From Christiangramia sp. OXR-203 (lineage in GTDB: Bacteria > Bacteroidota > Bacteroidia > Flavobacteriales > Flavobacteriaceae): DNA of 64,000 bases. The stretch's first letter is position 1. Each line of letters opens with the position of its first letter. Where the stretch lies: the NCBI RefSeq assembly GCF_034372165.1, contig NZ_CP139698.1:1550001-1614000 (forward strand). Direction: 5' to 3'. The translations under genes and the position numbers were made by a program. Shown one piece after another: positions 7,377 to 12,046 of the stretch. The notes under the pieces are model-generated. The model did not search any database and was not told the origin of the DNA. It was given only the letters and a program-made list of their open reading frames with translations.

Positions 7377-8275
7377 TCAAACAAAAGAATTTCGCTGCTA
7401 TAGATATTGGATCCAACGCCGTAAGACTGTTGGTGTCAACTATTACTGAAAAGGAAGGTAAAGAACCAATGTTTCGCAAAACCTCGCTGGTACGTGTTCC
7501 TATAAGACTTGGTGCAGATGTATTTCTGAAGAAGAAAGTTTCAGAAAAGAATACCATGCGCATGATCGATACTATGCACGCCTTTAATCTCTTGATGAAA
7601 TCTCATGGTGTGGAGAAATACAAGGCTTACGCAACTTCGGCAATGCGGGAAGCGACTAATGGTAACGAGATTGCTGCTATAATTAAAGAGAAATCTGGAA
7701 TTAATATTGAGATCATTGATGGATCTCATGAAGCTGCGATCATCGCCGCAACAGATCTGCATGCACTTATCCAAAACGATTGTAATTATTTATATGTGGA
7801 TGTTGGGGGTGGAAGTACAGAATACACTATGTATAGTAATGGGAAAACGGTAGCTTCCAGATCGTTCAAAGTTGGAACTGTTAGAATGATGGAGGACCTT
7901 GTTGAGCATCATACCTGGGAAGAAATGCGCGAATGGGTGAAAGAAACTACCAGGGATTACGATGATATCGATCTTATAGGTTCCGGAGGAAACATCAACA
8001 ATATTTTCAAGACCAGTGCGAAGAAGGAAGGAAAGGCTCTTAGTTTGAAGTATATGAAAGACTATGACGAAAAGCTGAATTCTTATACTTACGAGGAGCG
8101 AATCACCGAACTGAATCTAAAGAATGACCGCGCAGATGTGATCATTCCAGCTACAAAGATCTATGTAAATTCCATGAAATGGGCTCGTGCCAACTGGATA
8201 CATGTACCTAAAATTGGACTTGCAGATGGGATAATTAAATCTCTATATAATGATTCTAAGAGGAAAAAGGTCTAA
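7373..8275 (+). CDS. ppx: Exopolyphosphatase / Ppx-GppA phosphatase
   Basis: This 300-residue protein of the ASKHA fold has both phosphate loops (AAIDIGSNAVRLL near the N-terminus and VDVGGGSTEYT) and the adenosine-type motif LIGSGGNINNI. It matches the two-domain core of Ppx/GppA and lacks the C-terminal HD-like extension of E. coli Ppx (about 510 residues). It removes terminal phosphates from polyphosphate, or hydrolyses pppGpp in GppA. The ppk1 context favours polyphosphate. Its stop overlaps the miaE stop on the other strand by 4 bp. Confidence 0.92.
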   Translation: MIKQKNFAAIDIGSNAVRLLVSTITEKEGKEPMFRKTSLVRVPIRLGADVFLKKKVSEKNTMRMIDTMHAFNLLMKSHGVEKYKAYATSAMREATNGNEIAAIIKEKSGINIEIIDGSHEAAIIAATDLHALIQNDCNYLYVDVGGGSTEYTMYSNGKTVASRSFKVGTVRMMEDLVEHHTWEEMREWVKETTRDYDDIDLIGSGGNINNIFKTSAKKEGKALSLKYMKDYDEKLNSYTYEERITELNLKNDRADVIIPATKIYVNSMKWARANWIHVPKIGLADGIIKSLYNDSKRKKV

Positions 8276-8856
8276 CCGTGAATACTTTCCTTTGTTCCCA
8301 GATCCTTCATAATCTTAGCTTCAAATTCCAGTAGATCTTCCCATTTTTGATCTACTACTTTCCGGTCTTCGCCATATTGCCGGGCGAACTTCAGGAACAT
8401 CGTATAGTGGTTGGCTTCGCTTATCATCAAGTCACGGTAAAATTTTGCCAGATCTTTATCTTCCAGTTCTTCAGAAAGTAGTCTGAAACGTTCGCAACTA
8501 CGGGCTTCGATCAAACCAGCAATAAGAAGACGATGTACCAGTTGAGTGGATCTGCTGCCACCTTTAGGGAAAAACTTTAAAAGTTGTATAACATATTCAT
8601 CTTTACGATCCCAACCCATTTTAAAACCCATATTTAGCAGCCGGTCGTGTACCATTTTAAAATGCCCCATTTCTTCTCTTGCAAGTGCGGTCATGGCGTT
8701 CACCAGGTCAGAATATTCCGGGAAACTTACTATGAGAGAGATCGCTGTAGAAGCCGCTTTTTGTTCACAGTATGCGTGATCAACAAGAATATCTTCAATG
8801 TTTTTCTCTGCAATATCAGCCCATCTCGGGTCTGTAGGTAATTTTAATCCCAACAT
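8272..8856 (-). CDS. miaE: tRNA-(ms2io6A)-hydroxylase, MiaE
   Basis: MiaE is a non-haem di-iron monooxygenase that hydroxylates the isopentenyl group of ms2i6A37 in tRNA. The 194-residue protein has the ferritin-like ligand pattern: a Glu in HAYCEQKAAS, EEMGHF, a Glu in EARSCERF, and SEANHYTMF. It lies just downstream of dnaX (2-bp gap) in the same direction and probably shares its transcript. Confidence 0.9.
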   Translation of the reverse strand: MLGLKLPTDPRWADIAEKNIEDILVDHAYCEQKAASTAISLIVSFPEYSDLVNAMTALAREEMGHFKMVHDRLLNMGFKMGWDRKDEYVIQLLKFFPKGGSRSTQLVHRLLIAGLIEARSCERFRLLSEELEDKDLAKFYRDLMISEANHYTMFLKFARQYGEDRKVVDQKWEDLLEFEAKIMKDLGTKESIHG

Positions 8857-8858
8857 AA

Positions 8859-10769
8859 TTATACATCTAAATCAAAGGTTGCTCGCAATTGGTCGAGTAG
8901 AGGATTGGCCTCTTTCAGTTTTTCATATTTTTCCTGCGGAGTAAAGGCGTATTTTTTGGAAACAGCTTCATCTACATGAATGATCAGCTTTATATGCGTA
9001 TTTCTAAGTCTGGCTTTTAGAAAATTCATTAGTCTGTTCTCTTCCCGTTCAAGATCGATCTTCATCGTTTCATTCGGAAAGGTGAGATGAATATCTCTAT
9101 TTTCAAGACTGGGTGTTTGCGATTCGAAAATAGATGCGAGAATCTTTTCACCTTTATTCTTCAGTTTTTCTGAATAATTTTTCCATTCCCGTATCATATC
9201 TTCTTCGGAAAACTCATCATCCATTACCTCTTCAACAGGCAACATCGCTTTTTGTTTTTCCGCCAGTTCCTTTTTTTTACTAATGCTCTTTAAAGACAGG
9301 CCAGATACCTTTTCCCGTTTGATCTCAGGAAGAATCTTTTTCGTTCTAACAGGTTCTTCTTCAGCAACTTTTCTAAATTCCTGTACTTCGGTCTTTTCAG
9401 TAGAGTTCGATGTTTGCTTCGGAAGATTTAAAGAATCAAGGTTTGCATCGGTTTCAGCAGCATTAGTCTGAGTTGCGGCTGAAAATTCATTAGAATCCGA
9501 AGGACTCTCCTTAGAATAATAAGTTGCCTCTTCTGGTTTAGCACATGATTCCGGTGCTTTTTTAGGATCTGGAAGACCAATTTCTTCAGCAGGAGTAGAG
9601 CTGTCATGCTCACTTTCCCTTAGCAGTTCTTTCTTCTCATTCGATATTTGAACCGAATGCTGAGTGAAATGTTCCGGGGGAACTATGTTGCGTTCAGACT
9701 TTTTTTTTTGCGTATCGAAAGTGATCGAAGCCAGTTGCATTAAGCAAAGTTCAACCAGCAATCTTTGATTCTGACTCGTCTTATATTTTAGATCGCAGGA
9801 ATTTGCAAGTTCAATTGCTTCCATCAAAAATTGATGTGAAGTTTGTTGAGACTGTTCAAAATATCGAGCTTTTGTTTGTTCTCCCACTTCTAGCAATTGG
9901 ATGGTTTTCTGATCCTTGCAAACTAGCAAATCTCTAAAATGAGATGCCAATCCTGCAATGAAATGATGTCCATCAAATCCTGTAGCTAGGATTTCATTAA
10001 ATTTCAGAAGTAATTGGGGAATATCATTCGCGAGAATCAAATCTGTGACCTGCATATAAGTGTCATAATCCAGAACATTCAGATTTTCTGTAACTGCCTG
10101 TCTTGTAAGTTCATTTCCACTGAAACTAACCACACGATCATAGATAGACAGTGCATCACGCATCGCACCATCGGCTTTTTGAGCGATAATATGCAAGGCG
10201 TCATCTTCTGCTTTTACACCTTCCTGTTCAGCAATATAACCAAGATAGTTCTTCGCATCTGTTACAGTAATTCTCTTAAAATCAAATATCTGGCAACGAG
10301 ACAGGATCGTTGGAATGATCTTGTGCTTTTCTGTCGTGGCCAGTATAAAAATAGCATGTTTTGGCGGTTCTTCAAGAGTCTTTAAAAAAGCATTGAATGC
10401 AGAAGCAGATAACATATGCACCTCATCAATAATATAGACCTTATATTTTCCAACCTGTGGCGGGATACGAACCTGGTCAATAAGATTTCGAATATCATCC
10501 ACCGAGTTGTTCGAAGCCGCATCCAGTTCAAATATATTGAAAGCGAAATCTTCGTCTGGAGCCTGAGTACCATCATGATTGATCATTTTTGCGAGGATAC
10601 GGGCACAGGTAGTTTTACCTACACCACGAGGTCCTGTAAATAACAAAGCCTGGGCGAGATGATTGTTATGGATAGCGTTCGCGAGCGTATTGGTGATCGC
10701 TTGCTGTCCAACAACATCTTTGAATGTTTGAGGCCTGTATTTACGTGCTGATACTACAAAATGTTCCAT
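8859..10769 (-). CDS. dnaX: DNA polymerase III clamp loader subunit gamma/tau
   Basis: The clamp loader ATPase has Walker A (GPRGVGKTT), Walker B/DEVH (IIDEVHMLS), the sensor-1 region (ATTEKHKIIPTILSRC) and sensor-2 region (GAMRDALS). I take the ATG at 10769 (MEHFVVSARKYRPQ, 636 residues) over a TTG one codon upstream. Residues to about 350 form domains I-III; the rest is acidic, low-complexity linker and a tau-type tail. Two oddities stand out. The four-Cys zinc module normally found between Walker A and ELDAASNN is absent. An A10 tract (9700-9709) at the end of domain III could generate a short gamma form. Confidence 0.97.
   Translation of the reverse strand: MEHFVVSARKYRPQTFKDVVGQQAITNTLANAIHNNHLAQALLFTGPRGVGKTTCARILAKMINHDGTQAPDEDFAFNIFELDAASNNSVDDIRNLIDQVRIPPQVGKYKVYIIDEVHMLSASAFNAFLKTLEEPPKHAIFILATTEKHKIIPTILSRCQIFDFKRITVTDAKNYLGYIAEQEGVKAEDDALHIIAQKADGAMRDALSIYDRVVSFSGNELTRQAVTENLNVLDYDTYMQVTDLILANDIPQLLLKFNEILATGFDGHHFIAGLASHFRDLLVCKDQKTIQLLEVGEQTKARYFEQSQQTSHQFLMEAIELANSCDLKYKTSQNQRLLVELCLMQLASITFDTQKKKSERNIVPPEHFTQHSVQISNEKKELLRESEHDSSTPAEEIGLPDPKKAPESCAKPEEATYYSKESPSDSNEFSAATQTNAAETDANLDSLNLPKQTSNSTEKTEVQEFRKVAEEEPVRTKKILPEIKREKVSGLSLKSISKKKELAEKQKAMLPVEEVMDDEFSEEDMIREWKNYSEKLKNKGEKILASIFESQTPSLENRDIHLTFPNETMKIDLEREENRLMNFLKARLRNTHIKLIIHVDEAVSKKYAFTPQEKYEKLKEANPLLDQLRATFDLDV
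9694..9710 (-). promoter_or_regulatory. Probable dnaX slippery site producing gamma
   Basis: On the - strand the frame reads CAA AAA AAA AAG TCT GAA, giving ten consecutive A at codons 354-357 (ATG at 10769 as codon 1). Adding one A by transcriptional slippage, or a -1 ribosomal shift, gives CAA AAA AAA AAA GTC TGA, a stop after one extra residue. Losing one A gives AGT CTG AAC GCA ACA TAG. Both alternatives therefore close at once, right after the domain III end (LCLMQLASITFD). A T10 homopolymer is also error-prone in sequencing, but the 0-frame reads on for 279 codons. Confidence 0.7.
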
Positions 10770-10879: not shown

Positions 10880-10883
10880 CCGG

Positions 10884-11194
10884 AAGCAGGCCGCCTTATC
10901 GCTCCGACATATACCTCGGAGAGGAAAGTCCGGACACCACAGGGCAGTATAGTGGGTAACGCCCACCGATCGTGAGATCAGGACCAGTGCAACAGAAAGA
11001 ATGTACAGGTTAAGCTGTAGTGAAACCAGGTAAACTCTATGCGGTGCAATGCCATGTAAACCGGCATTTAAGGATCGCCCGTCCGTTGCCGGAGGGTAGG
11101 CAGCTCAAGATTAGTGGTAACGCTAATTTTAGATAAATGATAAGGAATCCGATCTTATTATCGGATGACAGAATCCGGCTTACAGGCCTGCTTT
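10884..11194 (+). ncRNA. rnpB: RNase P RNA, bacterial class A
   Basis: This is the catalytic RNA that removes 5' leaders from pre-tRNA. The 5' strand AAGCAGGCC at 10884 pairs with GGCCTGCTT at 11186-11194 to form P1. The universal 5' core GAGGAAAGTCCGGAC (10921-10935) with CACCACAGGGCA, and the 3' core ACAGAATCCGGCTTACAGGC (11168-11187), are intact. A T-run follows P1 and can serve as terminator. The last 15 nt overlap the 3' end of the convergent GH16 gene. Confidence 0.96.
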
Positions 11195-12046
11195 TTTATT
11201 CTCTATTCGTTGGTACACTCGTACATAATCGATTTTGAATTTCTGCGGAAAATTTGAATCATCGATCTCTCCTGCCCACTTTCCTCCAAGTGCGAGATTG
11301 ATCAATAGAAAGAATGGCTTTCTAAATGGATTGTTAGTAGTTCCGGCATCTGCAATTTCAAACGTATGATAAACTTCATCATCTACCAGGAATTGGATGC
11401 GATCCCTGTCCCAGTCTACTGAATATACATGGAATTTTTCTGTAACAATATCGACGTAAGTAGTATCAGTTTTGGAAACGATCTCATTCTGCTCATTTGC
11501 ATAATGAACACTTCCATGAATTTCTCCCTGGTTTTTTCCTACATGTTCCATAATATCGATCTCACCAGCTTCAGGGTACTTTACGTCTTTGAAGTTTGAA
11601 CCTAGCATCCAAATTGCAGGCCAGGATCCGGCAGACTTTGGTAAACTCGCACGAACATCTATTCTACCATATTTAAAATCAAACTTTCCCGAGGTGTGAA
11701 TACTACCAGAAGTGTAGTTGGTTTCCGGTGTGTTGATGCGATAATCTTTTATCGCAGGATCGTAATCAGGATTTTCAAAATACTCGTTCCTGGCGGTTAT
11801 AATTAATTTACCGTTTTTAACGCGTACATTTTTTTTTCTTGAAGTGTAATATTGTGCCTCCAGATTTCTAATGAATCCGGTTTCATAACTCCATTTTGTA
11901 GGATCTGGTTTTCCCGAATGATCAAATTCATCCTGCCAGACCAGTTTCATTTGTTGGGCATTCATCATAAAACCTGTAAAAAATAGAATAGTAGTAGCGG
12001 TTAATTGTAGCCTTCTAAAACTTCGAATTCTGAGAAAGCATCCCAT
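11180..12046 (-). CDS. GH16 family glycoside hydrolase, secreted (laminarinase-like)
   Basis: The family includes endo-beta-1,3-glucanases and other beta-glucan or galactan hydrolases. The catalytic signature is E162-I-D164-I-M-E167 (GEIDIMEHVG), preceded by SWPAIWMLGSN. I choose ATG at 12046, which starts a basic n-region (RIRSFRR) and a hydrophobic core ending MNAQ, a signal peptide; it yields 288 residues. The frame extends upstream to 12166, but that segment is antisense to nothing useful and merely overlaps the preceding gene in another frame. The gene overlaps its upstream neighbour by 32 bp and its last codons lie in the rnpB 3' end. Laminarin use fits a marine flavobacterium, but substrate is inferred. 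Confidence 0.9.
   Translation of the reverse strand: MGCFLRIRSFRRLQLTATTILFFTGFMMNAQQMKLVWQDEFDHSGKPDPTKWSYETGFIRNLEAQYYTSRKKNVRVKNGKLIITARNEYFENPDYDPAIKDYRINTPETNYTSGSIHTSGKFDFKYGRIDVRASLPKSAGSWPAIWMLGSNFKDVKYPEAGEIDIMEHVGKNQGEIHGSVHYANEQNEIVSKTDTTYVDIVTEKFHVYSVDWDRDRIQFLVDDEVYHTFEIADAGTTNNPFRKPFFLLINLALGGKWAGEIDDSNFPQKFKIDYVRVYQRIENKKAGL

Follow-up and report, generated by a model that had tools for sequence, protein, structure and literature searches.

The dnaX gene of Christiangramia sp. OXR-203 contains a run of ten A's (A10) that is most probably a programmed transcriptional slippage site. The gene lies on the minus strand of the window analyzed here, a 64,000-nucleotide stretch of contig NZ_CP139698.1 (positions 1,550,001 to 1,614,000). 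Comparison of related genomes suggests that this one gene yields two replication proteins, one short and one long, through a stutter of the copying machinery. According to the proposed mechanism, RNA polymerase would stutter on the ten template T's and produce dnaX mRNAs with a varying number of A's. Messages in the tau register would be translated into tau, and those in either other register would meet an early stop, leaving gamma, which is just the clamp-loader core. As slippage would supply every register, the DNA-encoded frame would hardly matter; this would account for its drift across Bacteroidota, where many of the genes are split.

The window dnaX is a single open reading frame (ORF) with the gamma and tau parts in one frame, and reads CAA AAA AAA AAG TCT GAA CGC AAC ATA GTT at the tract (Table 1). 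The first-pass annotation of this DNA had placed ten A's at codons 354–357, just past domain III, and had given full-length tau 636 residues; the sequence confirms both, the Pfam domain III ending at about residue 350, four residues ahead of the tract. With one extra A the gene reads AAA GTC TGA and stops after one codon, at once, as had been predicted. With one A fewer it reads AGT CTG AAC GCA ACA TAG; the TAG named in that annotation is there, but it closes the frame after five codons and not after four. Runs of at least ten A's are rare in this organism, with seven on either strand of the whole 3,395,452-base genome against about 101 expected under a first-order model of the window.

Table 1. 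Features of dnaX in the window (positions counted from the first letter of the window).
Feature	Position	Strand	Basis
dnaX, full-length tau, 636 aa	8859..10769	-	ATG at 10769-10767; NCBIfam PRK14971 and TIGR02397 above cut-off
A10 putative slippage tract (T10 on + strand), dnaX codons 354-357, CAA AAA AAA AAG	9700..9709	-	Direct reading; A10 in 24/24 genus genomes
Common part of gamma and tau: AAA+ ATPase, lid, domain III	9710..10769	-	Pfam PF13177, PF22608, PF12169
Domain III, about residues 222-350	9720-10106	-	Pfam PF12169
TGA after one extra A (or -1 ribosomal shift); predicted gamma 358 aa, end Q-K-K-K-V	9694..9696	-	Direct reading
TAG after one A fewer; predicted gamma 361 aa, end Q-K-K-S-L-N-A-T	9683..9685	-	Direct reading
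Degenerate hairpin remnant GCTTCGATCACTTTCGATACGC, about -3.4 kcal/mol	9710..9731	-	Folding; strong in 98/115 other Flavobacteriaceae genes
Tau-only part (linker and C-terminal tau region), predicted to be made only in the tau register	8859..9699	-	

The dnaX gene was examined in 277 genomes: 24 of the genus Christiangramia (the window's own included), 116 of the rest of the family Flavobacteriaceae, 90 of other Bacteroidia (families other than Flavobacteriaceae in the class or order) and 47 of other classes of the phylum. A tract was called when a run of at least nine A's lay within about 60 codons of the conserved helix ending domain III. For the family, 198 genomes matched and 109 besides the window's own were examined (29 given, 80 chosen). 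This sample includes all 11 listed split-frame genomes, so that splits are over-represented, and it favors listed, better-scoring genomes, the most divergent matches lying outside it. Seven further family loci were added, five of them from one genus (g112), all examined members of which are split. Genomes in which nothing matched at the cut-off (one in the family, three in the class, two in the phylum) were outside the sample. Five duplicate loci were left out, as were 3 of the 242 tract genes with a contig end near the tract (L076, L155, L221), and the frame statistics cover the 239 tract genes whose downstream sequence was long enough. Shared phylogeny underlies all counts; codon comparisons were drawn within the same genes, and species were treated as independent.

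The first-pass annotation had proposed to check whether the tract persists among relatives, and it does. All 24 genus genomes carry an A run at the dnaX site, in every case exactly A10, and the other Flavobacteriaceae carry A9–A13 in 116 of 116 genomes (exactly A10 in 103). Outside the family, 9–13 A's were present in 73 of the 90 other Bacteroidia and in 29 of the 47 genomes from other classes; A9–A13 was found in all 80 loci from named genomes, some of which are the same genomes as in the main sample. On a tree of 276 leaves, tract presence changed about 20 times. For a codon test, the Lys-Lys that comes first beyond the domain III anchor was picked from the protein, blind to the A run. It was encoded by AAA AAA in 24/24 genus genes, compared with 36/140 other Lys-Lys of the same proteins, and in 116/116 family genes, compared with 266/548; pooled, the values were 140/140 and 302/688 (44%). 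Where Lys-Lys was present, the bias was found in other Bacteroidia (70/73 vs. 89/176 elsewhere) and in other classes (23/26 vs. 45/106) as well. A simple count of Lys codons (253/253 AAA) was discarded as circular, because a codon entirely within an A run must be AAA. In a synonymous-site scan, the tract was among the top windows in both sets, the gene start scoring slightly higher in the genus. Every one of the three codon phases is represented among the tracts (exactly A10 in 170/189 genes of phase 1, 15/21 of phase 0 and 14/32 of phase 2), so the tract encodes different residues in different lineages while the DNA stays the same. The tract is conserved at the DNA level and not at the protein level, and its occurrence at this site is not due to chance.

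Both alternative frames are closed shortly past the tract. Among the 191 single-ORF genes, a stop in the -1 frame, the one reached with an extra A, lies no more than three codons away in 97.4% (30% in the background), and a stop in the +1 frame, reached with one A fewer, lies within six codons in 90.6% (background 30–36%). Both frames are closed within ten codons in 97.9% of these genes (187/191), compared with 30.4% of 96,397 other positions in the same genes and 26.2% of 12,988 positions in the downstream linker, which served as a further control. In the genus, the extra-A register stops at the codon of the window's TGA in 23 of the 24 genes and two codons later in the remaining one, and the one-A-fewer frame stops within six codons in all 24. 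Many of the +1-frame stops are provided by ATA codons: within the twelve codons past the tract, 97 of the 181 Ile residues of genus and family genes are encoded by ATA, compared with 1274 of 5483 at other positions. As tract-less controls, 26 of the 35 genes with a run shorter than nine were used; the exclusions were five A7 genes, L202, L249, and L215 and L247, the last two having a longer A run further downstream. At the matching site, both frames were closed within ten codons in just 7 of these 26 genes. The dnaX gene of E. coli has its -1 stop after 1 codon and its +1 stop only after 12.

Two side observations concern lineages without a tract. These lineages (L203, L206, L209, L213, L214, L254–L260 and others) mostly do not have near stops in both other frames, as if gamma made by slippage had been abandoned. 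In L249, from a very small genome of 0.5 Mb (G245), the dnaX open frame is no longer than 359 codons, and a stop is reached in each of the three frames within 14 codons; in this genome the tau part seems to have been lost, with a gamma-like protein alone remaining.

The frame in which tau is written was found to drift. In 191 of the 239 genes the long tau part continues in the upstream frame; it lies at -1 in 43 and at +1 in 5. Of these 48 split genes, 37 carry exactly A10. Parsimony on a quick tree (276 leaves) gave at least 35 changes of frame state, and flips occur inside single genera. Several of them are associated with indels beside the tract. L183 has A10 TAGCAAC and its sisters, among them L302, have A10 TCTAGCAAC, which in L183 amounts to a 2-base deletion outside the tract; in L329 and L336, of another genus, the G found after A10 in closely related sisters is missing; and L388 has GGAGG ahead of the tract instead of the usual family GGAG. 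Because these indels lie outside the tract, those flips are not homopolymer sequencing errors, whereas other flips, which differ in run length alone, could be. Two explanations, a Lys constraint at the protein level and homopolymer errors behind every frame flip, were rejected on account of the variable codon phase and of the indels outside the tract. The named +1 loci L386 and L405 have A11, which by itself could explain their state. The sister comparison covered the +1 genomes G189 (a single sister available, in frame 0), G204 (14 sisters, 10 in frame 0 and 4 in frame -1) and G411 (19 sisters, 18 in frame 0 and 1 in frame -1); G261 had no available sister, and L208 was outside the comparison. 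A tau part in the +1 frame is unreachable by a -1 ribosomal shift, so transcriptional slippage fits best. Mixed shift directions for one function also point to transcriptional slippage under the rule of Antonov et al. (PMC3711429).

Next to the tract, the 34 nucleotides upstream fold more strongly than shuffles in the family (mean fold z-score -2.06, with 93 of 115 genes below -1; control -0.44) and, to a lesser degree, in other Bacteroidia (-0.93; control -0.04). The values hardly differ from the control in the genus (-0.67 vs. -0.48) and in other classes (-0.33 vs. -0.39). A hairpin with a folding energy of at most -4 kcal/mol, ending no more than three bases from the tract, was called in 98 of 115 family genes (17% in shuffles, 13% at upstream control positions) and in 54 of 71 genes of other Bacteroidia (35% and 21%, respectively). 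The usual family hairpin is CTCTATCA-CTTT-TGATGGAG, followed directly by A10. Its arms are strongly biased in codon use in the family, with ATC for 73/87 Ile (vs. 21%), GCC for 77/101 Ala (vs. 32%) and GGA for 73/88 Gly (vs. 29%); the Phe codon of the stem is unbiased (TTT in 68/82 vs. 79%). In the 116 distinct family sequences, standard pairs make up 75.8% of the pair cells, against a shuffle mean of 69.7%, and 54 cells are changed on both sides of the pair, against 25 in shuffles; neither value was reached in any of 500 shuffles. Slid partners, used as a control, were 36–65% paired with up to 48 both-side-changed cells. Less telling were the counts of pairs with at least one double change (reached by 213/500 shuffles) and of extra pair types (6/500), and alignment gaps left most hairpin columns of the synonymous-site scan unreadable. 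Taken as comparative sequence evidence, the pairing and the codon bias indicate that an RNA hairpin abutting the tract is under selection in most of the other Flavobacteriaceae examined. The tract-side arm usually reads GGAG, and a Shine-Dalgarno-like motif is found upstream of the tract in 79 of 115 family genes.

In the window itself, the hairpin is degenerate and below the threshold for a tract-adjacent call. All 24 genus genes have a G directly after A10. In the family and other Bacteroidia, the hairpin is missing in 20 of 62 genes with G after the tract and in 14 of 124 without it (Fisher p = 0.001, uncorrected for kinship). Within the genus, L028, L031 and L032 can be set against the other loci, in which the hairpin has been weakened or lost, the tract kept and the G after it fixed; L031 and L032 keep a hairpin of -10.4 kcal/mol.

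The slippage predicted by the first-pass annotation is supported by the kept tract, the near stops in both other frames and the constrained codons. We infer slippage itself, the short gamma product, the role of the hairpin and any gamma/tau ratio from these patterns of the sequence. In most Flavobacteriaceae and many other Bacteroidia examined, a hairpin of the nascent RNA just upstream probably stimulates slippage, and A10, about one RNA-DNA hybrid long, would fill the hybrid. In Christiangramia, including the window, the hairpin has mostly weakened or disappeared; slippage there would rely on the tract by itself, as is presumed for the A9 of Thermus thermophilus. With a weak hairpin and a G after A10, either slippage on the tract only, of the Thermus kind, or a shift on A_AAA_AAG like that of E. 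coli may operate in this genus.

Several observations weigh against transcriptional slippage or limit its reach. No run of at least nine A's is present at the site in 17/90 other Bacteroidia and 18/47 genomes of other classes, so the route is not universal; two of the 17 have a run of 9–10 A's further downstream. The hairpin was called in only 7 of 24 genus genes (shuffles 12%, upstream controls 14%), and in other classes without clear excess (11/29; shuffles and controls both 28%). None of the checkable sister species shares the +1 state, and these states therefore look recent. Tract lengths taken from draft genomes may contain sequencing error. To this must be added that the genus sequence would also allow -1 ribosomal frameshifting in the style of E. 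coli dnaX, with a slip at A_AAA_AAG, reading of AAA GTC TGA and release of gamma. A_AAA_AAG stands in frame in 24/24 genus genes, with the -1 stop right after it, and also in 25 of 115 other family genes, and 60-nucleotide folds in the genus average -10.5 right past the tract, compared with -6.6 to -9.4 from 30 nucleotides on. The closeness of the -1 stop is likewise as in E. coli, and the absence of the hairpin goes with the G after the tract. However, genus positions upstream of the tract, used as a control, fold at means of -8.7 to -11.8, and the folds past the tract are not outstanding within their genes (z -0.43, 0/24 below -2). Nor was a clear stem-loop signal seen downstream across the 239 genes, where the mean fold past the tract (-8.5) lay within that of the controls (-7.8 to -10.4). 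Within-gene z values were 0.22 in the family (first 60 of 115 genes), -0.23 in other Bacteroidia (first 60 of 71, 6 below -2) and 0.18 in other classes (29 genes); the test is coarse, the E. coli control fold being only about 1.6 standard deviations below its gene mean. In the genus, where the folds right past the tract are slightly more stable than those further on, a downstream stem-loop is unlikely but conceivable. A Shine-Dalgarno-like motif within 20 nucleotides upstream of the tract occurs in 0/24 genus genes, and the anti-Shine-Dalgarno sequence is reported to be occluded in Bacteroidia ribosomes (PMC8710568). In the same group, prfB frameshifting has been reported as inefficient in F. 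johnsoniae (PMC12421855), although 72% of surveyed Bacteroidia genomes keep the prfB shift site (PMC8710568). The closed +1 frame is unneeded for -1 shifting, and the five genes with tau in the +1 frame are out of its reach. Ribosomal frameshifting is considered unlikely.

The remaining alternatives seem weaker still. Sliding of ribosomes on the poly-A message could reach any frame and would thus be as indifferent to the written frame as polymerase slippage. E. coli ribosomes slide on longer A runs, robustly at A11, and end at out-of-frame stops, and three AAA codons are already enough for some truncated product (PMC4363877); in the E. coli cell-free system, however, A9 or A10 in a three-lysine insert gave little sliding product (PMC4363877). 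Sliding also leaves the adjoining upstream hairpin unexplained, as a hairpin covered by the ribosome presumably cannot be folded, and the tract stays near 9–11 in all three codon phases; we regard it as improbable. That there is no recoding at all, the run encoding a needed E-K-K-K/N peptide or being due to chance, gains something from the E/Q-K-K-K/N encoded at the site in most single-ORF family members. Against it stand the invariable AAA AAA at the site, the three codon phases, the frames that flip while A10 stays, the closure of both other frames and its rarity in tract-less genes, so that this explanation is very hard to maintain. Heritable slippage of the DNA, a phase variation switching between gamma and tau, agrees with the differences in tract length (A9–A13) and frame between species. 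It is contradicted by the exact A10 in the whole genus, in most family genomes and in 37/48 split genes, and tau is presumably always required for replication, which makes such a switch scarcely credible.

With transcriptional slippage as the preferred reading, a broader picture of the phylum can be drawn, to which we incline with less confidence than to the slippage site itself. Across Bacteroidota, dnaX would have no fixed frame past the clamp-loader core; a terminator-like hairpin and an A10 filling the hybrid would randomize the register, indels at the side of the tract would be near neutral, and stops would be selected in both non-tau frames. In some lineages, including most of the genus, the hairpin would have been lost and a tract-only form left. 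An ancient essential gene would then be read via transcriptional frame scrambling. If slippage is right, much of the phylum makes both clamp-loader subunits via a stutter of RNA polymerase; ribosomes that largely ignore Shine-Dalgarno signals may suit frameshifting of the E. coli type poorly. The origin of gamma outside E. coli, Thermus and Caulobacter could then be answered from existing RNA-seq reads. Split dnaX genes, which gene callers could take for broken or gamma-only, would probably be intact, and a replication gene with a nearly neutral written frame would offer a clean case for studying the effects of the hairpin, tract length and next base on slippage.

The surroundings of dnaX in the window include, as its divergent neighbor, an RNase P RNA of class A (Rfam RF00010, 219 bits; 10883-11198, plus strand) and, adjoining it on the minus strand (8275-8856), a gene matching MiaE, the tRNA-(ms2io6A)-hydroxylase (Pfam PF06175). 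A second A10 of the same genome, at about position 1236149, occupies codons 3-6 of a gene of the UDP-glucose/GDP-mannose dehydrogenase family (Pfam PF03721). This gene starts with ATG ATT AAA AAA AAA ATA; slippage in this run would shut off its expression or make it variable.

A phylum-wide pattern, a drift in two directions and an abutting hairpin were found in no published account in the open-licence literature, as judged from search listings. The first-pass annotation had known of no description in this lineage; the idea is not wholly undescribed, as Antonov et al. (2013; PMC3711429) reported from GeneTack 17 two-ORF dnaX genes with poly-A, all of the -1 type and nine of them with ten A's, and proposed slippage. 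Species named there include Chloroherpeton and two Chlorobium. These genes resemble the 48 split genes among our 239 in the poly-A at the junction, the split layout and the shift needed for tau, whereas the window dnaX is a single ORF. In E. coli, -1 programmed ribosomal frameshifting of dnaX is established (PMC1088944, PMC5009743). The same gene is concerned in the window, with A_AAA_AAG and an immediate -1 stop, but the genus differs from E. coli in having no Shine-Dalgarno-like motif, no clear downstream stem-loop and a near +1 stop.

The known precedent for the window gene is dnaX of Thermus thermophilus, in which transcriptional slippage on A9 has been established experimentally (Larsen et al., 2000, cited in PMC1088944 and PMC5009743). 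Both genes have a single tau ORF, an A run of at least nine and near stops in both other frames, and in both gamma is expected from slipped mRNA. Slippage in Thermus takes place on A9 and was shown by experiment, whereas A10 is the rule here, and the drift of the tau frame and the tract-abutting hairpin seen in the window's relatives are not reported for Thermus in the excerpts of PMC1088944 and PMC5009743. For the hairpin, a parallel is provided by an IS630 element of Roseiflexus, in which a stem-loop in the nascent RNA, lying directly 5' of the motif, stimulates polymerase slippage, the hybrid being 9–10 bp (Atkins review, PMC5009743). The Roseiflexus motif is T5C5, permits a one-base deletion only and lies in a transposase gene, and the window species has a mere hairpin remnant. 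In most of the Flavobacteriaceae dnaX genes examined, however, a stem-loop is likewise 5' adjacent to the presumed slippage motif, and the hairpin and A10 of these relatives match the geometry of the hairpin-stimulated slippage in Roseiflexus.
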